Below, in pieces: positions 5,067 through 64,000 of a DNA stretch of 64,000 nucleotides. Every line of letters begins with the position of its first letter. Within the stretch, counting starts at the first letter, position 1. The stretch is from Rhizophagus irregularis (lineage: Eukaryota > Glomeromycota > Glomeromycetes > Glomerales > Glomeraceae). The position numbers and the translations under genes are program-made. A model generated the notes under the pieces. The model was not told the DNA's origin. It saw nothing but the letters and a program-made list of their open reading frames with translations, and did no database searches. The stretch lies in assembly GCF_026210795.1 (NCBI RefSeq), contig NC_089458.1:2434001-2498000 (forward strand). Direction: 5' to 3'.

Positions 5067-5355
5067 TATTTACTGCACCACTGTGAACTCGGTTCACATT
5101 CTCTGTATTTATTAATAAAGTTCGCTCATATTGGGCTAGCATTTTTTTAACTCATATATATGCTGCTCGTCAAATAAATAAATTTGAAACATGTTATTCA
5201 CTAGTATAAGTTGATAAAGAATCGCTAAAAAGGCTAAAATCGGCTATAATCTATTTATAATCGTAAAAATGGTTAAAACTAACTATAATGGTTTAAATAT
5301 TGTAGTAGTGCGGATATCCTGTCGTATCTTTATATATGTTTCACGTAACATCATA

Positions 5356-5973
5356 TTAAATACGTCTTCGTCCTTTGCTATCGATTACCGGATCTTTTGA
5401 AGTAGAAGACTCTACTGGAATGGCTGGGATGTAGGAGGCTACCTTGTCTTCTGGGGTTCGTCATCTTCTCCACGTCGATGCTTGTATGAACGTGCATCTC
5501 CCATACCTTCATCATCTGCTGAATGCTTTCCGATACTATTCTTATTTGAGTTCAAGGCATAATCTATTTTTTTCTGATCGAAGATTCTAGACTTCACATC
5601 TTCACCCTGTGCTTGAGTCTTTAGAAGTGAGAGAGAATGGTTAAATTCACACAATCTCAAAAGTCTGAAGTGATAAAGCCGGTCACCAGGGACTGCGAAT
5701 GAACGTATTAGTTCTTAGCCCGGCACGTAGCTGGGTTACTTAGATGGTTGTTTTTGGCACGTAGCCCAACTCCTTCTCTATCCCCTCGCCACTTCGTCTT
5801 TCTCTTAAGCGTAATATAAGCAGATACTGGCCTTTAGCATTTTATCATTAAGGACGGAAAAAACTATCTTCGTCTTCAAAATCATTATTTAATGACTCTT
5901 TCTCAATTTCATTTGTAATAGATTTGATAGAATAATCATTGATTGAAGACATGAAATGTTTCCTTGTTGTCAT
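5356..5973 (-). pseudogene. broken multi-copy hypothetical gene
   Basis: On the minus strand a short frame starts MTTRKHFMSSINDYS at 5973 and ends NNDFEDEDSFFRP at 5848. A second frame (5660-5439) holds LLKTQAQGEDVKSRIFDQ and ARSYKHRRGEDDEPQKTR. After a one-base shift the same product continues as VASYIPAIPVESSTS and stops at 5356. The middle portion resembles an uncharacterised family that I recall as repeated in Rhizophagus. At least one frameshift and a non-coding gap show that this copy is dead. Confidence 0.5.
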
Positions 5974-6435
5974 TATCCAAAAAATAATCTAAAATTTGTA
6001 ATACTTTTTTTGTACCAAATATACTAGGTAACGGGATCCGTTGTAAATGTCCGAAGCACTCGTTTAAAATCACGCGCACTTTCCAAACTCATCACATCTG
6101 ATCACGTGATAATAATTATTATTTGGTTAATCACGCGTGCGGACAGGAGGGCAGTGATCATTAACTTACATAACGTCGCCTGGAAAAAATGGTAGCCGGA
6201 TTGATTTGCAGGATCGCACGTGACTTTTGGATACTGATTGTTAAATTATTTTTCCATTTACTCCTTTTACTATGCTATTTCTTCTTCTTCTAATAATATA
6301 CAAAAAAATCCAAAAACACAAAAAAATAATAATAACATACAAAATAACAAAAAAAATAATAATAACAATAACAATTCTGGTTTTTCTGGGGGTTTTCAAA
6401 ATTATACTTATTTCAATTCACATTCATTTTTAAAT

Positions 6436-7199
6436 ATGACAACTTTAAATTTACAAGGAGGCTTTGAAACAAAAAAACACAATTTAATTTCTTATATGGT
6501 TGATTCAAATATTTATTTTCTACTTTTGACTGAAACTCATTTAAAAGATTCAATAAAATCTTCTACAACACGTTTACATACTATGAAATTTGCGGAATAA
6601 TGAAAATATAGACTTTTATATTATTCATAATCCATCACCACAATCAGCAAGTGGTGTATTGTGTCATTACTATACCAACATATTCAAAAAATAGAACATA
6701 CCTTTTTTTTCAAAAGACATGAACAATTACATATTTTAGGATTATATTTACCCCTATTTTGTCTTCTAATAATAATATAGAAACACTCAAATTAATTAAT
6801 ACTCATGTTAAAACCTTTTTGAACTCAAAAAATAGTTTCAAAAGAATGATCATTCTGGGCAACTTTAATATCAACCTAGTGAACCTACATAAAACTAATT
6901 CTATTTTATTGACTAATAATATTGATGGTGATAATAATAACAAGAATCATGTGACTTTGGTGTTTTATCATAAAATCCTTTTAACAACTTTAAAAACTCA
7001 CACTTTTAAAGATATAGTTAAACTTTATAACGAAATACCTTCTTTCACCTTTAAAAACTCATCTAATCACACCTCTTATATTGATATTATTTTTGTTTCA
7101 CTTAATTTAATTTCACATTCAATTTGCACATCTATAATAGAAGCGCCAATTAATACTAATCATTATTTAATTTCTTTGGAAATTTTTTCACTCCCTTAA
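6436..7199 (+). pseudogene. LINE endonuclease domain remnant
   Basis: The segment opens with MTTLNLQGGFETKKH and LLLTETHLKD, matching the LN.QG and TETHL motifs of LINE apurinic endonucleases. After a broken stretch comes LGNFNINLVN, the position of the usual GDFN motif with Asp changed to Asn, and near the end SYIDIIFVS followed by NTNHYLISLEI, equivalent to the IDYIF and SDH blocks. Stops at 6598 and the GDFN substitution indicate that it is inactive. A decayed linker continues to about 7920. Confidence 0.7.
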
Positions 7200-7934
7200 T
7201 AATAATTATACAAATAGGAATCATGATTAAATAGAATTACAGAAGAAAATTCTTTATCACACAACGAACAATATAATTATAATAAGATCATAAAAGAACA
7301 ATGGGTGGATTTCAAAAATTTTGTTTAGAATAATTTCCAAACACTTTCTTTCAAATTTCTTACACAAAACGATCCTCTTAATATTATTTTTAAAAATATA
7401 ATTCAAAGTATTCATCATGCTATAAATGCTATTGGTTTTCCAATTATCAAAAACAATAATCACTAATACGAAATGTCTTATAAAATACGAATAATGGAAA
7501 ATGATCTCTATTACATTACAAATTTAATTAGAAAATTAATTATATATTTTACGCCTTAAACATCCAATACTTTTATTTCAAAAAACTTCTGGAACAGTAC
7601 TAATTGCCTTAAAAAAATTTGTGCTAACTTGGATTTAGGATTAATAGAACTTCTGCAAAAAGATATTGTCTGACCAGTTTACTTATTCTTATCACATTAC
7701 AAGAAATCATTGGAAATCCTTACAAAAATTAAAACTTATATTAATAATAATTTAAAAACAGAAATTAGCCAATATCAAAAAACGAAAATTGAAAAATTTA
7801 TTAATCAAAGGGATGAAGACCTACAATCAAATCAAAAAAAATGTTAACTTTATTATTAGATTAGGTACTAGAAAAAATTAAACTAGACAAATTAATTTTT
7901 CAAAATGAAAACAATTTACTATAGATACGAATGA

Positions 7935-8345
7935 ATAGTGCTCTAAAATAAGTTGAGTTGACTCACAAGTTGGTTAAATCAAGTTGAGTTGAATTGAGTT
8001 GAAAATTACAATCAAATCGAATTGATTCGAGTCGAATTAACAATTTAATAAAATTGAGTCGAGTTAAGTTAAGCCAAATTAAACATAATTCCGGCCAAAT
8101 TTATGAAATTTCCTTTTTTTGGAAATTATGTTACATAAAATCTGAGACAAAAAATTTTAAGGCAGCCAAAGAAAATCATGTGATTTAATTCGACTCAACT
8201 TGATTCAGTTTGACGGTAAACTCAACTTGAATTGAATCAAGTTTATATTTTTTATAATTTTAACTTGACTTGACTTGACTTAATTTAACTCAAATTAAAT
8301 TAAGTTTATATATAACTCGACTCAACTCAACTCGTTCAGAGCATT
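7935..8345. mobile_element. 411-bp MITE with TTGAGTTGA subterminal repeats
   Basis: Inverted ends (ATAGTGCTCTAAAA on the left; AATGCTCTGAACG on the right after reverse complement) are flanked by the perfect 8-bp repeat acgaatga at 7927-7934 and 8346-8353. Inside both arms, blocks like gagttga, gactcaa and gtcgagtta recur many times. Removing the element and one target copy lets the LINE read DTNEIEIQAIEHYRD in frame. Confidence 0.85.
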
Positions 8346-9911
8346 ACGAATGAAATTGAAATACAAGCTATTGAGCACTATAGAGATATTGGTAAAATTG
8401 ATACAACTCCACTATCATATGATCCATCTTAACCATTAAAAGAGTCATGGAATACTACATATCAACCTATCCTTAATATCTCACCTTCCGCTATAGAAGA
8501 TCTAAACAAATTAATTACTTTAAACGAATTACAAGCAACAATTAAAGAATTGCCAACTAAAAAAGCAGCTAATCCTAATAAAATAACATATGAAATAATT
8601 AAACAACTTCTGCTACAATTTCAAGAAATGTTGGTATCGTTCTTTAATTATATTCTTATTAATGAAGTTACTTTAGAACAATTCAAATTAGCCTTTCTAT
8701 ATCCAATTTCAAAACCAACTTGGTGGAATTATGATATAAATCATATACGTCCAATAATTTTATTAAATTGTTTCCCTATAAAAAGTATTTATGTTTAAAA
8801 TATAATTAAAAACTTTTTAAAATATATTTAAAATATACTTAAAATATATTTAATTTAAAATTGCGAAATACTTATAATATACTTAAAATGTATTTAAATT
8901 AAAATTTAAGTATATTATAGATATATTTTTTACATACTTAAAATATACTTATAATATATTTCATAATATATTTTAAGTATATTTTAGGTATGTAAAAAAT
9001 ATACTTATAATAATCTTATAATATACTTAAATTTTAATTTAAATATAATTTAAATATATCTTAAGTATATGGGCAAAAATTAAATATATTAAACATATAT
9101 TTTAAGATAATTTTAAGTATATTTTAGATATATTAAAAATATATTATAAGTATTTTGCAATTTTTAAATTAAGTATATTTTAAATATATTTTAAGTATAT
9201 TTTAAGTATAATACTTTTTATAAGGTTTTAGAAAACTATTAATAAAAATTATCAATAGTTGTTTAAATCTATTCTTAAATATTAACAAAATTCTTTAACA
9301 TAATAATCAAGCAGACATTCAAGGAGCCTCCTGTAATGAAATCATCTTATATATTCAAACTATTATAGAACATTAACAGCATACAGGCAGCCCTTTATAT
9401 TTACTTTTGCAAGATTTAAATAAAGTGCATGATAGAATAGACCTACCTTTACTGTTATTAGCACTCAAAAGGATCAATTTACCTTCTAACCTTATTAAAT
9501 TTATAGAAAACCTTTTTATCAGACATAATAATTGAATTATCCTGGCGAATACCCTTTCTAATCCTTATAAAATAAAATAAAGCATTATACGAGAAGAGAT
9601 AATTTTACCGCTTCTATGAGTAATATACTATAACCTGATGTTTGCTGCAATCAACAAATCTTTGTATTCAGGCTATCATCTTACCACCTCACTAGTACTA
9701 ATGAATATTTACCGCAAAAATGATTTTTATAATAAAGATATAGAGCTAAAATTAATAGGATATCTAGATGATACAACTTGGTTTTCAGACAATTTGACTA
9801 ATTTAGAATCTAATAACCTGGGTATAGCAGATGATTTTTATTTATTAGCAAATATTAAGATAAATAAAGAAAAAATGAAGTTATTAATAAATAACGTTGA
9901 TTTATTAGCAC
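8346..9911 (+). pseudogene. LINE reverse transcriptase remnant
   Basis: Upstream of a MITE the frame reads LPTKKAANPNKITYE, FLYPISKP and HIRPIILLNCF, the typical entry into the RT palm (P.KK..G.D.I, RPI.LL). After the MITE it continues with KVLEKLLIKI, LQDLNKVHDRIDLPLLLLAL (first catalytic Asp region) and KLIGYLDDTTWFSDN, where YLDD stands for the usual FADD of LINE enzymes. Several in-frame stops are present. The palm motifs make the identification secure. Confidence 0.85.
8779..9220. mobile_element. 442-bp AT-rich palindromic MITE, TA duplication
   Basis: The ends are TAAAAAGTATT and its exact inverse, with flanking TA at 8777-8778 and 9221-9222. Almost the whole element is an inverted repeat built of taagtatatt-type words, centred near 8990. 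Excision with one TA turns the LINE reading into NCFPKVLEKLL, which confirms the boundaries. The TA duplication points to a Tc1/mariner-type mobiliser. Confidence 0.8.
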
Positions 9912-10119
9912 TAAAGTTCTGCACAGGTCAGGTCGGGTCAGGTTATCTGATTAACCTGAACTAAAATTTTTTTTCAGGTCAAGTCGGGTCAGGTAAACCA
10001 TTCTAACCCAACCTGACCCATTTAATCTAAAAGTATTCAGATCACTTCAGGTAACTCAGGTTACCCAAAGTTTTATTATTAAATATTGTAAAAATGTTTT
10101 GTAATGTTTTTTACTTTTT

Positions 10120-10770
10120 GTTTTTATATATAAAATGCTAAAACTATTTGTTTCGGCAGTTTTCCTTTTGATTTTACATGTAAAAATGCTAAAACTAATA
10201 GTTTTAGCATTTTTTTTCAATTTTACATGTAAAAATGCTGGAATCATTAGTTTCAGCATTTTTCCTTTTGATTTTACATGTAAAAATGCCAAAACTGATA
10301 GTTTTAGCATTTTTTTTCAATTTTATATGTAAAAATACTGGAATCATTAGTTCTGGCATTTTTCTTTTAATTTTACATGTAAAAATACTGAAATTGATAG
10401 TTTTGGCATTTTTTTTGATTTTACATGTAAAAACGCTGGAATAATTAGTTCTGGCATTTTTCTTTTTGATTTTATATGTAAAAATGCCAAAACTGATAGT
10501 TTCAGCATTTTTTTTCAATTTTACATGTAAAAGCACTGGAATAATTATTTCTGACATTTTTCTTTTTGATTTTACATATAAAAACACCAAAACTATTAGT
10601 TTCAGCACTTTTTTTGATTTTACATGTAAAAATGCCGAAATCATTAGTTTCAGTGGTTTTCTTTTTGATTTTACATGTAAAAATGTCGAAACTAATAGTT
10701 TTGGCATTTTTTTTCAATTGTACATGTAAAAATGCCAGAATTATTATAAGTTTCGGTATTATTTAATTTA
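10120..10770. repeat. tandem array of about 60-bp palindromic units
   Basis: Ten or eleven units, each with ttacatgtaaaaatgc followed by an aaactgatagttt-like core and ggcattttt, alternate so that every unit can pair with itself and with its neighbours. The divergence between units is a few bases. All six frames stay open over parts of it, producing Phe/Lys-rich pseudo-proteins. The whole array sits inside the MITE at 9912-11101. Confidence 0.8.
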
Positions 10771-36609: not shown

Positions 36610-38100
36610 AAAGATTAATATAATTAAGAAATAAATAAATGCAATATTTCATTCAAGATCCAGATTATCTGTTTATCTAGGATTACTAAAAAGAGAAGGA
36701 AAACATTAACTACGTTTCTAGAAAGTATAAAGATTAAAAAAAAAATGAAATAACCTACCATATTTTGTTCGTTTAAGATCCATTTATCCAGGATTGTTAA
36801 AAGATAATTACATTTTCAGAAAGTATAAAAATCAAAAAAAAAAATGAAATAACCTACCACATTTTGTTTGTTTAAGATTCATTTATCTAGGATTGCTAAA
36901 AAGAGAAGGAAACATTAATTACGTTTTCAGAAAGTATAAAGATCAAAAAAAGAATAAAATAATCTACTACATTTTGTTTGTTAAGATTCAGGTCGGCCAT
37001 TATTCAGGGTTACTAAAAAGATAAAAGAAACGTTAATTACATTTTCAGAATGTATAAAAATAAAAAAAAAGAATGAAATAACAGGACCCACTTACTTATA
37101 ATAAAGGTCACTGTAGAAAATTAGCTTTTATTAATAGTTTTTACCTTACTTTTTTCTTAAATTCTATTGGTTAATTAGTTAAAAAGAAAAAAAATCATAA
37201 CAATGTAACATAAAATTTCCTTTTATAGTAGGATCTGCAAAGAATTTTATATATGATTTTTATCTTAGGCTTGAGATGATCTATCTTATAAGTAAGCGGG
37301 TCCTGAAATAACCTATTATATTTCATTTATTTAAGATTTAGGTTGTCTTTTGTCTGTTCGTTCAGAATTGCTAAAAAACGTTAATTACGTTCTCTGAAAG
37401 TATAAAAATCAAAAAATGAATGAAAAAAGAATGAAATAACTTACCATATTTCATTCAAAATCCCAGTCATTTGGCTTCATCTGTTCGTCCAAGTCTGTTT
37501 CTGAAAAAAAATGAAAAAAAGAAATTTTGTTAAAATTATTATAGTTGATTTTATTTATTTTTGCAAATCGGCAATTTAAATCAATATTGATTTTTAAACA
37601 AATAATCAATTGTTTATGACGAATTTTATTTGCTTGGCAGGTTCAAATTTTATTGATATTAAGAAAAAAGAAAAAATGTAAAAAAAAAGTTTTTTTTTAA
37701 AAAAAAAATAAAATGACTTACCAGTTAACACATTTCGTTTAAGATCCAGTTGTTCTGCACTGTAAAAAAAGTCATTCCTTTTTTTATATTCCATCTCTTT
37801 TCTGTAAAAGGCTCATATTTCTGAAATTAATAACTCTATATCACGGAATTTATCAAATTATTTACAAATAGATCTGTGAAAAACCCATTTTTACAGAATT
37901 TTACAGAAATAACAGATAAAGTTCTTTATAATATGGCTTTATCTATTCATTTAGGTTCGCTAAAGTAAAAGAAAAAGGAAGCGTTAATAATATTCCCTGA
38001 AGTAAAAAAAAAATGACAAAAAAAAAGAATAATTTATCTTGCCATTTGTTTGAGAGTTGTTCATTTGGCATTTGGACTTGACAAGCTAAATGCTTTATCT
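36610..38100 (-). repeat. tandem array of exon-like cassettes
   Basis: On the minus strand, 38-56-base cassettes bounded by ...TTTTAG or ...TTTACAG acceptors and GTAGGT or GTAAGT donors repeat about every 105-125 bases: 37722-37759, 37445-37500, about 37316-37370, 36968-37012, 36858-36895 and 36759-36796, with a terminal piece ending at 36685 and two more upstream at about 37925-37963 and 38040-38095. In one frame they resemble ILDKWILNEQNM and MADLNLNKQNV. Some units have lost a splice site: the acceptor at 36797 is AA and the donor of 37316 is AT. Cassette lengths are not multiples of three, and several carry stops, so this is probably a decayed repeat gene. A family A MITE is inserted in one intron-like spacer. 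Confidence 0.55.
37083..37304. mobile_element. MITE family A, copy 2 (222 bp)
   Basis: Ends AGGACCCACTTACTTATAA and, inverted, AGGACCCGCTTACTTATAA. The perfect 8-bp duplication is gaaataac at 37075-37082 and 37305-37312. It lies in a spacer of the cassette array, so it arrived after the array had expanded. Confidence 0.95.
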
Positions 38101-59815: not shown

Positions 59816-61507
59816 TATAAAAAATATATTAAATAACTTGGCATCTAATAATCATACAAAAACATATGGGCTGATTTGTTTACCTTTAATTAAAATATTG
59901 ATTTTATTACATTTTTATTATACAAAATACTATATAATATACAGTAAATTGGGTGAGTATTAAAAAACTTTTATTTAATGTTATTATACTATAAGTTGGT
60001 AAATATTTCTTTTAAATTAATATAATTTTTAGCACTTACTATATATATTAAAAATTTGTATCTCAACTTTAAACGTAAATATCTCCAGATCTAATGATCC
60101 AATTGGCAAGCTCTTTTTTCGCTCATATAGACCAGATCAAGGGCTTTCTGAAGAGCCTAAATTTATAAAAAACGGATCAGTGGATCCCAAGATATTTGCA
60201 TTTAAGCATGTTAAAAAGTTTATACTTCAACTTTAAACGTAAATATCTCTGGATTTAATGATTCAATCGGCGAGCTCTTTTTTCGCCTATAAAGTCCAGA
60301 ACAAGGGCTTTCCAACGAGCTTAAAATTATAGAAAACGGATCAGTGAATCTTGATATATTTGCGTCTAAAGATGGTAATACAAATTCTGACATAAAATAA
60401 TTATTTTTATTGTTTGAAAATATCTATTATGATACCATCTTTTATATGATATTTTTATTATACTTTTATAAACATTTATAGCTACTAAGACTATATAAAT
60501 TTTTATCTTACTTTATATTTTATTAAAATATACTTACTTTTTAATAATATATGTTAAAAATTCCATATATATGAGAAATGGGTTTTTTATTAATAAAATG
60601 GGTTCATAATTTATATTTAAGACTCTTTCTGGTAGATCTTACGCCCAAATAATTTTCCAAAAATAATTTTGAAAAAGTGACTTTGTCACTGAACCACATA
60701 AGAAAACAACATTTTGCTTGTAAAAACAGAACTCTTGACTTTTAATCTACAATATTCAGAAAAAATCCAGGGTTTTTTGAGGAAATATTGGTTTCTTTCT
60801 TTTGTTTTTCTGGCTGTAGTAATAGTATTAGGCTAGCTATGTCATAAGTGCTCTTTTATTGTGTAGAAGGGCTAGGGTCACCAATACGGATGAGCAAACT
60901 GAATGAACATACTCGAAACATATTTATTAACGATAGTTAATAACAGTTATCACAACTTTCATTACAAACCTTTCAATTTTTTTTTATTCTTGGTGCTGTA
61001 TTTGCTCAAAATGATTGATATGAAAAGAGATTATCCATCAATATTATACATCTTGTGACTGAAAAGCTAACACATTTTAGTGATGCGAATAGGTTATACA
61101 GTTCTAATAAGAGTAATTCTTACACCTTATTGGATTTTGATTCTTTAAAAAAAGATAACACATAATTACAAGTGTTTACAAATAATCAACGAATTATAAA
61201 TAGGTATAAACAACCACATGACGTTATTAGTGACAGAAAGAATGTGAATGTTAAATTTTACATCTTCAAGTACCTGACTGGCAGTAATGCTTGCATTGCC
61301 AATATCACAAGGGATGAGAACTAAATACTTCAATAAACTGCATGCCTTATTGATAGAAAAACATTAATTATTAATTGAATGGTTAGAATTCATATCATTC
61401 AGAAATAATGAAACAACAACCTATATCAGGTTTTTAGTCAGACATACAACATGGTATTTTGGTTTCAGGCTGCTATGTAATATTTGTTTACAGTTGTGTG
61501 CTATAAC
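59816..61507. other. no gene seen apart from repeats
   Basis: AT-rich sequence containing the two hairpin repeats listed next. From 60600 to 61500 composition becomes more balanced, but I found no supported frame. Confidence 0.4.
60068..60372. repeat. conserved hairpin repeat, copies 4 and 5
   Basis: Two tandem units begin caactttaaacgtaaatatct and end with gatatttgc or gatatatttgcg, the inverse. Each encloses gatcca/gattca, gagctcttttttcgcc and aagggcttt blocks followed by aacggatcagtg. The layout equals that of the copies at 39354 and 47309, although the sequence has drifted. Confidence 0.65.
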
Positions 61508-61750
61508 TAAGGTTATCTGCCTAAACCTCTCCAAATTTCTATGATTAGTTTCTCCAAAATTTTACTATAGTTTTATTATATTTTTGGTAAGATTTTATTA
61601 GTTTCAGCATTTATAATAAGTTTCGTCAGGTTTCGCTTTTCTCCAGAGTTTTGCTAACTTTTAACAAGACTTTTATATAGTTTTGGCAAAGTTTCGCTAT
61701 TTTGGCATTTCGCTAACTTGCCAAAACCCCTAGTTTCTCCAGCAACCTTA
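61508..61750. mobile_element. MITE family B, copy 4 (243 bp)
   Basis: Starts TAAGGTTATCTGCCTAAAC and ends CTCCAGCAACCTTA. Perfect duplication gctataac at 61500-61507 and 61751-61758. Inverted relative to copies 1 and 3. Confidence 0.95.
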
Positions 61751-61758
61751 GCTATAAC

Positions 61759-62206
61759 TATGTCAAAAAATAGAAAAATGTGTTGGAAATGTAAGAAATA
61801 GATTATTCAACAACCATCCAAGGTCTCATTAAAGAAGGCGATCTTTAAAGATCTAATGTACAAAAAAAAGAAGGAAATTTATCTGCCAAAGAGGGGAATA
61901 AGTTTCGTTAAACAGCTTGCTTATAAAAATAAAAAGTCTTACAAACATTATGAAAGTAGTATTCCTATACAATATAGAGTCATTTATTCTTATTATAAAG
62001 AAGATAACCTGAAATCTGGTACTAGAAAAGCAGAAATACTCATGAAGAGAAGAGTTAGAGGTTTAGCGAATAATAAATCCAAGTGGCGCATTTTGGATAA
62101 TGGTGATGTTTTATTCACACCACTCTTCCGCTTGTCTTACCACATGTTCAAAACAAAAGAAGCAATACTTAAAGAAGTGTATGTTAAATCAAGTGATCTC
62201 ATGTGA
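61759..62206 (+). pseudogene. unidentified basic protein fragment
   Basis: After MSKNRKMCWKCKK and a TAG, the same frame continues with VSLKKAIFKDLMYKK, then IYLPKRGISFVKQLAYKN, RKAEILMKRRVRGLANNK and WRILDNGDVLFTPLFRLS to a TGA at 62204. Shorter pieces of similar style (NDEIIFNHIYDEDDFAII) follow to about 62330. It is Lys/Arg-rich and begins immediately after the target duplication of a family B MITE. I do not recognise it; the CWKCKK pair could be half of a zinc-binding knuckle. Confidence 0.4.
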
Positions 62207-62459
62207 TTATACAGCGATATTAACAATAGATAACACTTTAATGATTTAAATGATGAAATTATATTCAATCATATTTATGATGAAGATGACTTTGCTATAA
62301 TCAGAATATTTAAAGAAGAATAGCTGCTGTACGTGTCCCAACAGATGAAGATTACAGATGTGTAGAACATCTTTACACAAAAAGTAAATCAATGCTCCAA
62401 GAAGTAGATAAGCTACGAGATGAATGTATATGTGAAGATATTAGATCACTGGTCAAAAT

Positions 62460-62640
62460 AGTCCAAATCGGCCAAAATTCAGCCAGCTGATTTTAGGCTG
62501 ATTTATGGTCTAATGCTGATCAAACTTTAGCAGATTTTTTGGCTGCAATTCACTGCCACTCGCCTAAAGTTCAGCTTGAAATTTTGGCCAAAATTCAGTT
62601 AACATTTGGAACAATTTCAGATAGCAAATTTTGGTGAATA
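62460..62640. repeat. short inverted-repeat cluster
   Basis: Words such as ggccaaaattcag, cagctgattttagg and their inverses recur over 180 bases. It may be a degenerate foldback element; no ends could be fixed. Confidence 0.35.
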
Positions 62641-62828
62641 GTTTTCCGAATGTTACTTAATTTATATTGCAAATTTGTACTAAATTTATTTACTAATATT
62701 CAGCCACAACTCATTTTATTTGATATTCGCAATAAAATCACAACTTTATTTATAAATGCATATTACAAATAAGTATTGCTAATCTACAATTCCACAATCA
62801 CATAATTCATGTATTCGTATATACTTAC

Positions 62829-64000
62829 GAATCTTGATCTTTTGGAAACCCACCAAAACTATAAAAAAAAGAAAAGAACGGTTAGTAACTGTTCCATAAT
62901 ATTAAAAAAAAGCAAAAAAACCCCAAAATTCTACTTACGAATCTTTGGTTTTTTCTGTTTATCGGAATCCACTTGAGACACCAAACCTATAAAAAGAAAA
63001 AAAAGAGCGGTTATTAATAACCATTCATAATAATATTAAAAAAAATAAAAAATAAACTAAGATTCGTACTTACGAATCTTGGTTCCACTTTTTTTAAAGA
63101 TCCTGAAACCTACAAAAAGAAAAGAACGGTTATTAGTAAACCGTTCGTAGTAATAAAAAATAAAAATAAAAAATAAAAAAAAGAACCAAGATTCGTACTT
63201 GCTTACGAATTTTGGTTTTCCGTTGTTCTTCGGAAGCCCACTGAACTAAAAAAATAAAATAAGAACGGTTATCAATAACTGTTCGTTAATATTATAAAAA
63301 AAAATAAAAATAAAACTAAGATTCATATTTACGAATCTTAGTTTTTTCCATTCTTTGGAAGACACTGACTTAAAAAAAAAGAAAAAGAACGATTAGAAAC
63401 CGTTCGTAATAATAAACAAAAATAAAAAAATAAAGATTCATATTGAATCTTTAGTTTTTTCCATTCCTTGAAAAGACGGAAATCCACCTGAACCTATAAA
63501 AAAAAAATCAAAGGAACGGTTAGTAATCGTTCCATAACATTAAAAAAAAAAGATTCGTAAGTATATTACTTACGAATCTTAAAGGTCCTCCTTTTTCCGT
63601 TCTTCGGAAGTCCACCTGAACCTATAAAAAAAGAAAAGAACGGTTATTAGTAACCGTTCATTAATAAAATTAAAAAAAAAAATTATAAAGTAAAGATTCG
63701 TATTTACAAATCTTTACCTTTGGGTTTTCATTCTTCAGAAGCCCACCCAAATCTAAAAAAATAAAGAAAAAAATGGTTATTAGTAACTGTTCGTAATAAA
63801 GAAAAAACAAAAAAAAAATTATAAAGTAAAGATTCGTACTTACGAATCTTTACCTTTGGGTTTTCATTTTTCGGAAGCCCACCGCACCTAAAAAAATAAA
63901 GAAAAGAACGGTTATTAGTAACCGTTCGTAATAAAGAAAAAAACAAAAAAAAGAAAAAAAGTAAAGATTCGTACTTACGAATCTTTACCTTTAGGTTTTC
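62829..64000 (-). CDS. microexon-array gene, SP7-like repeats, truncated
   Basis: Ten short exons on the minus strand, the first running off the right edge: 64000-63979, 63887-63844, 63752-63708, 63621-63574, 63493-63445, 63368-63333, 63245-63207, 63109-63074, 62986-62939 and 62858-62829. Most introns are 75-95 bases with GTAAGT donors and TTTATAG or TTTTTAG acceptors. Seven of nine complete exons are multiples of three with the same phase. Repeat peptides: GGLPKNENPKVKI, LGGLLKNENPKVKI, SGGLPKNGKRRTFKI and LVSQVDSDKQKKPKI, joined through Arg, Cys or His. The 63445 exon (49 bases) has lost its donor. The basic, hydrophilic tandem repeats in separate tiny exons resemble the repeat part of SP7-like secreted effectors. 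The signal peptide would lie beyond 64000, so identity is unproven. Confidence 0.6.
63753..63859 (-). promoter_or_regulatory. intron with hairpins at donor and branch site
   Basis: Example of the repeating intron. At the donor the exon end AAAGATTCG pairs with CGAATCTTT in the intron, leaving TAAGTA of the splice site in the loop. Near the acceptor a second hairpin with GTT/AAC stem displays ACTAAT, a branch-site-like word, about 30 bases before the AG. Most other introns of the array repeat this plan. Confidence 0.55.

Follow-up and report, generated by a model that had tools for sequence, protein, structure and literature searches.

Palindromes at the donors and branch sites of a microexon array carried by a dispersed CACTA-like transposon of Rhizophagus irregularis

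The microexon array at the end of the DNA stretch analysed here (64,000 nucleotides, C30:2434001-2498000, called the window throughout) is the body of a non-autonomous CACTA-like DNA transposon that is dispersed in dozens of copies through the genome of R. irregularis. In most of its units both donor and branch site lie in palindromes, whose stems show two-sided changes among members of the family as well as between families of related elements. What maintains the palindromes? The account that we put forward, with even confidence for and against, is that the microexons of this array transposon would be spliced onto flanking sequence, and that the palindromes would persist mainly through turnover at the DNA level.

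The element and its array

The copy in the window is 2,742 bp long and occupies 62447-65188 on the window scale (L009 2447-5188), its array continuing past 64000 to about 64828. In the genome searched (146.7 Mb, 32 contigs), matches to other loci run up to the same base or to within a few bases of it on both sides of this copy. The terminal inverted repeats (TIRs) are CACTGGTC, continuing (A/G)AAAT, and the copy is flanked by the target duplication GAT/GAT. Duplications of 3 bp flank 22 of the 23 copies scored by eye (16/17 plus 6/6 with both ends readable), L015 being the only one without a matching duplication; the count leaves out five copies with one readable end (L025, L027, L028, L032 and L035). 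Each end of the element has at least 40 matches genome-wide, so that what the earlier note on this DNA took for one locus is instead a dispersed transposon, and the end pattern CACTGGTCRAAAW has 646 matches, versus 14 for a reversed control. It is the shared boundaries, the TIRs, the 3-bp duplications and the dispersed end matches together that make us call this a non-autonomous CACTA-like transposon. Copies read in whole span about 2.2-4.6 kb, some bearing insertions, and hold about 11-23 units; other copies, on C9 and C4, are longer as judged by end spacing.

The available text of one source defines the termini of CACTA/EnSpm/CMC elements as CACTA...TAGTG (PMC4158355). The present element retains CACT, the fifth base usually being G (CACTG...CAGTG), while a relative in L040 has the terminus CTAGTG; the 3-bp length of the target duplication is that of CACTA/EnSpm/CMC elements. 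No transposase was seen on reading through the copies. The genome has many Transposase_21 and Plavaka genes. Among the matches listed, four to Transposase_21 are situated on C1 and C3, about 2-6.5 kb inward from single TIR matches, and among the TIR pairs listed none encloses a Transposase_21 match; a Transposase_21 element sharing these ends is suggested. Plavaka transposase was rejected as the partner, as 0 of 123 matches lie inside the TIR pairs listed for C1-C3 (by eye). Two copies considered as autonomous elements were also set aside: L027 is instead an array split by an insertion, and L025 has reading frames beyond its array. The insertion in L027, at about 5200-9660 within a family A array, is about 4.4 kb long and has reading frames of 135 and 284 aa. 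Paired CACTGGTCAAAAA ends 295 bp apart at C1:1954812, C1:2871013 and C1:5895664 are probably miniature elements with the same type of end.

The sense strand of the array is the minus strand, on which the right end with a pyrimidine-rich leader is followed by an acceptor, the units and finally a terminal exon in the left end (Table 1). A unit consists of an exon of about 45 nt (consensus range over ten unit types, 36-56 nt) and an intron of about 85 nt, in the order exon, GTAAGT donor, T-rich intron, TACTAAT or TACTAAC, T-tract and AG. By their letters these would be spliceosomal introns, with GT, branch site, pyrimidine tract and AG at the usual spacing, and the description of the region as a microexon array with splice signals is borne out. 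Unit types U13-U18 stand in constant order in 23 of 25 end-to-end copies (the exceptions are L017 and L032, and two copies repeat one type); the remainder of the array varies. In the window copy the usual GT donor is gone from one unit, near 63450. No donor was found by eye inside the element before the first acceptor; therefore the first exon would be external, or transcription would start inside.

Table 1. Features of the element in the window
Feature	Window positions	Strand	Remarks
Non-autonomous CACTA-like transposon, part in window	62447..64000	-	Sharp common boundaries, TIRs, target duplication
Left TIR CACTGGTCAAAATA	62447..62460	+	Right TIR CACTGGTCGAAATA (read inwards) beyond window
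Terminal exon with stop codon	62779..62858	-	AATAAA at 62745-62750 follows; from consensus of 24 copies and translation
Donor hairpin, 15-bp stem, loop TAAGTA	63957..63992	-	
Branch-site hairpin GAACGGTTACTAATAACCGTTC	63900..63930	-	GAACGGTTA-CTAA-TAACCGTTC; -11.5 kcal/mol
Donor hairpin, 14-bp stem	63823..63856	-	TAAAGATTCG/CGAATCTTTA; first example in earlier note
Donor hairpin, 14-bp stem	63687..63720	-	Donor weakened to GTAAAT
Unit U13 palindrome	63550..63580	-	Consensus donor inside 14-bp stem
Donor hairpin, 14-bp stem	63312..63345	-	AACTAAGATTC/GAATCTTAGTT; third example in earlier note
Donor hairpin, interrupted stem, longest run 5 bp	63184..63217	-	CCAAGATTCG/CGAATTTTGG; second example in earlier note
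Donor hairpin, 8-bp stem	63059..63080	-	

Hairpins at the splice signals

The hairpins that frame the splice signals of this array are real. The three stem pairs quoted in the earlier note are all present, as is the second stem that it placed at the branch site (Table 1). The donor does lie in a hairpin, as claimed, but not as a GTAAGT held in a 6-base loop: the donor G is usually paired, and the loop is TAAGTA or AAGT. The element's stems are separate and about 6-16 bp long. How unusual is the arrangement? Across the whole window copy, 9 of 12 GTAAG motifs lie in an enclosing stem of at least 7 bp, versus 9% of 81 in the control (window 1-62400, both strands), and for ACTAA[CT] the figures are 4/7 (57%) versus 5% of 132. 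Six other copies give 85% of 100 for GTAAG and 74% of 74 for ACTAA[CT], and family B (L037, L038, L040) 88% of 42 and 57% of 46. In clade C, where the donors are GTAC, GTAAA or GTAAT, the branch motif is enclosed in 74% of 19 cases and GTAAG in 0/7; with the wider donor pattern GTA[AC][GAC] the clade C share is 33% of 45, versus 11% of 639.

Counted by main donor as identified by pattern, 11 of the 15 in the window copy have a stem of at least 7 bp and four have 5 bp only, nine of the 15 lying inside the window; automatic donor choice gave 8/15, having taken an upstream cryptic GTAAAG in several units. Ordinary introns, 13 of them called heuristically from 17 exon-match gaps in three chaperonin-family genes, have a donor stem of at least 7 bp in 1/13 and a branch stem in 2/8. 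Rfam 15 gave no match up to E 0.1 in window 60000-64000. Elsewhere in the window, on the minus strand at 36690-37180, stands a further small tandem array whose parts resemble exons and introns; of the sites tested there, three of the four branch-like ones and one of the three donors lie in weak hairpins (-1.8 to -2.5 kcal/mol).

The plan of the hairpins is common to relatives of the element. L042 and L043, chosen solely by their paired ends, have arrays oriented as in the window copy; both elements retain the hairpin plan despite stem letters that are mostly different. Their stems include GGAATTTCGAAG-GTAC-CTCTTCGAAATTCC and CGAAACGTTACTAACGTTTCG, with GTA and CTAAC/T again apical; in several L043 units GTAAG is at the base of the stem. 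When arms of family A are combined with arms of clade C, the donor hairpins fall to -2.9 and -4.8 kcal/mol, versus -13.1 and -8.9 kcal/mol for each with its own arm, and the branch hairpins to -5.6 and -3.9 kcal/mol, versus -11.6 and -7.3 kcal/mol. Beside the splice-like array, L042 and L043 also carry, towards one end, repeats some 170 bp long. A related array in L039 has a diverged right end and many changed splice signals.

Paired changes and what might keep them

The earlier note had seen the stems change together, and the covariation analysis that it proposed has now been run. Over a set of 60 units out of 63 (three without a recognised motif were dropped, and a few wrong pattern-called branch sites such as A_U17 were kept), arms on average pair better with their own partner than with partners from other units, 0 of 2000 permutations reaching the native mean for either stem. 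The same holds, again at 0/2000 for either stem, for 22 units of clade C, a set that includes some false calls. On 46 aligned donor segments, 56 cells show two-sided changes, versus 20.9 +- 3.5 when shuffled and at most 21 when slid, and the covariation score is 0.295, versus 0.147 shuffled and at most 0.142 slid. Seven pairs show a two-sided change, a number matched by 29/500 shuffles, and there are 18 further pair types, matched by 87/500. This alignment covers donors and holds 46 of 49 distinct segments; it omits L040:1748, L015 U13 and L015 U18, the U13 hairpin being in another register, and including all three would probably lower the paired share. The branch-hairpin alignment was left out, being misaligned at unequal loops.

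Among copies, nine unit types with 18-25 copies each show 43 two-sided Watson-Crick changes and 5 other two-sided changes. Permutation yields 21.9 +- 3.5 of the former, or 24.5 +- 3.5 within subfamilies, and 43 was never reached in 1000, though this permutation does not control for copy age. A within-copy test, which draws partners from a different unit but keeps copy and context, does control for copy age (but not for whole-hairpin exchange between units); with 175 of 191 pair positions eligible, it finds 35 compensated pairs versus 18.4 +- 3.8 expected, a number never reached in 2000. Paired changes on both sides of the stem thus exceed the shuffled and slid controls in most measures.

Does selection on an RNA fold account for this? 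The idea is that selection keeps the fold, the hairpins presenting or masking splice and branch sites and so setting ordered splicing, intron retention or exon choice. The excesses of two-sided cells and of compensated pairs within copies speak for it, as does a hairpin plan common to families with mostly different stem letters. It is also known that local hairpins can modulate splicing by weakening donors or hiding branch sites, as in MAPT exon 10, SMN2 exon 7 and SF3B3 (PMC11802352, available text). Those cases resemble ours in that a donor or branch site is covered by local structure, but are single regulated exons, whereas the hairpins of R. irregularis belong to the introns of a mobile tandem array. 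We regard such selection as a live, less than probable explanation.

The mutation spectrum weighs against it. A selected RNA fold should tolerate C>T, which leaves G.U, but not G>A, which leaves A.C. The ratio of G.U to A.C cells is 30:24 in the diverged set and, among copies, 64:63 at donors and 57:95 at branch sites, so that G.U is not above A.C in the sense that selection would require. Motif counts in 27 element sequences, two of them partial, point the same way; the palindromic arms supply matched contexts, and the donor TA count is excluded, being contaminated by the left-end motif. In the branch stem, C>T and G>A number 30 and 52 of 317 in the 5' arm and 27 and 58 of 279 in the 3' arm; the donor 3' arm has 20 and 31 of 203. 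In three of the four stem arms, then, G>A, which breaks the pair, outnumbers C>T, which keeps a wobble. The donor itself shows the reverse trend, with 42 C>T (GT kept) and 26 G>A (GT lost) of 346; loss of the donor by CG>CA, at 26/346 (7.5%), is barely rarer than its context match at 20/203 (9.9%). Stems also decay on a single side, 212 cells being broken among copies, and stem bases change at 5.1%, versus 6.4% for other bases. These counts leave unsupported the claim that the paired changes reflect an RNA fold held by selection. A separate observation is that on the sense strand of family A branch stems G>A reaches about 16-21%, versus 10% for C>T in matched contexts.

The measured copies, however, are probably for the most part decaying after insertion and past selection, and the wobble test therefore concerns these copies and not the master or active lineage; selection in the active lineage is compatible with an absent wobble preference in copies. 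Equal treatment of the two mismatches, together with the excess of repaired pairs, fits copying of DNA from arm to arm or exchange of whole hairpins. We rate DNA-level turnover somewhat above RNA selection. In the account that we prefer, the element would be moved by a transposase made elsewhere. The microexons of a copy situated within transcribed DNA would be spliced in varying sets onto flanking exons, and hairpins in the pre-mRNA would somewhat weaken each donor and branch site, leading to skipping and to shifted donors. The palindromes would persist at the DNA level, by duplication or exchange of whole units and by copying of one arm from the other, so that the joint turnover of stems would be mainly a DNA-level process rather than continuing selection for an RNA fold in each copy. 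The donor's own excess of C>T over G>A is a point against DNA turnover, though the matched arms differ little.

Might the palindromes instead be bound, as DNA, by a transposase or an accessory protein, and coincide with the splice signals only by accident? The ends of CACTA elements bear repeated binding motifs, and dyad symmetry suits a dimeric protein; palindromes do recur throughout this CACTA-like element. They occupy its whole body, however, and not just its ends, and from family A to family C the letters of the stems diverge widely, GTA and CTAAC/T for the most part keeping their place close to the apex. Protein sites would also leave the acceptors, the T-tracts and the hint of coding described below unexplained, and we think them quite improbable.

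Exon use, coding and related systems

A query of joined exons matches 70 annotated R. irregularis proteins. In P0016 the first 26 residues are encoded outside the element, from L009 5558 downwards, and residues 45-164 run in order through the array; 154 of its 164 residues fall in exact pieces, two short out-of-order ones included. Residues 31-44 have no in-order counterpart in L009, and the protein therefore represents this insertion as it stands in a different allele or assembly, whose first units are not the same. By reading, its model appears to turn to shifted donors wherever mutation has altered the main one. In P0004 an exon of 128 residues (L021 3805-4188), just outside the element at L021 4276-6664, is joined to six in-order array exons, others being skipped.

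RIR_jg gene names presumably belong to the annotation made by AUGUSTUS with RNA-seq hints. Among the joined-exon matches, four of seven RIR-named genes have an isoform number of at least 2, and in RIR_jg29739 an 18-aa cassette and a different end distinguish isoform t3 from t4. The arrays of these genes are related ones, and not all are of the element type in the window. The available text on the R. irregularis annotation by AUGUSTUS with RNA-seq intron hints gives 43,675 isoforms for 41,572 genes (PMC6123716). Gene models through the arrays may be ab initio. The annotated proteins and isoforms make the exon choice proposed in the earlier note plausible; splicing of the array exons, and any control of it by the fold, are inferences from sequence.

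Are the exons under selection for coding? The consensus of the 3' block and terminal exon reads in one frame save for one TGA, in U15, which looks like CpG decay. In 56 exons from several families, 43 are open in the phase used, versus 32 and 31 in the other phases, and open frames per exon number 1.89, versus 1.10 +- 0.10 in mononucleotide shuffles. As the units are related, this excess gives only a hint of coding selection, and it is also a hint against DNA turnover alone. A reading of the array as a repeat-protein gene, captured or native and perhaps encoding an effector, kept by selection on the protein with the hairpins as a side effect of repeat evolution, has in its favour this excess, the single frame of the 3' block and exon lengths that are multiples of 3 in 27/56, but is very doubtful given the other 29/56, the use of all three frames by the annotated proteins (60, 18 and 15 of 70), the lack of any first coding exon seen by eye within the element, the absence of a Pfam match above cut-off in 4/4 proteins scanned, and 0/70 proteins with the SP7 motif Y[KR]Rx[AP]x[AP]. 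An SP7-like effector gene, suggested by the organism and the repeats, was rejected on that last count. SP7-like effectors of R. irregularis are marked by a signal peptide, a single conserved intron ahead of the first repeat, and that motif (PMC11333574, available text). They share with the array proteins the fungus, hydrophilic imperfect repeats and a repeat number that matters, and differ from them in the motif, other features having been compared by eye.

Two other published systems come near. Tgm-Express1 of soybean, as far as its available description goes, is a CACTA element with five unrelated captured gene fragments, for which splicing was shown by cDNA (PMC1947982). Its internal exons are spliced in many combinations onto host exons, as those of the CACTA-like element of R. 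irregularis would be; the latter, known from its DNA, differs in consisting of one unit, repeated about 11-23 times, with hairpin splice sites. The symmetrical stwintrons of Hypoxylaceae are fungal introns with long inverted repeats, in which the donor G, branch A and acceptor G are often unpaired in the predicted hairpin, and their symmetry is judged unnecessary for splicing in the available text (PMC8469720). As described there, stwintrons have inverted repeats spanning the whole intron and are dispersed without target duplications, whereas the present array has two short hairpins per intron, one of them crossing the exon border, and is tandem within a transposon with TIRs and target duplications. 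A stwintron has an inner intron and terminal inverted repeats of 45-55 nt; no inner intron was seen by eye in the array. Surveys of R. irregularis transposable elements describe Plavaka and CMC elements and, in colonised roots, expressed elements (PMC11075540, available text). A search by title and opening of the abstract, mostly outside the subscription literature, found no account of hairpin-framed splice arrays in such elements, nor did it turn up a mobile element whose tandem array places its donors and branch sites in separate hairpins.

Should the arrays prove to be spliced, they would be a stock of ready exons spread across the genome of the main model mycorrhizal fungus, and P0016 and P0004 already join an outside exon to array exons. 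It is a bolder and rather unlikely idea that arbuscular mycorrhizal fungi possess a superfamily of transposons with portable splicing arrays, whose self-hairpins gate donors and branch sites and give host genes shuffled repeat exons of variable length, the structure of the gate being conserved while its letters turn over. Since dozens of copies vary in stems, donors and branch sites, the effect of structure on splice-site choice would be measurable from existing long-read RNA data. Even with no role for the fold, symmetrical palindromes that change their letters are a test case for palindrome correction at the DNA level, and a warning that covariation by itself is no proof of RNA structure. 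There is a consequence for annotation too, since some of the hypothetical proteins here are in fact transposon arrays. At window 10116-10746, far from the element, lies a tandem repeat of about 51/100 bp that is palindromic, its arms being TTTTAGCATTTT.
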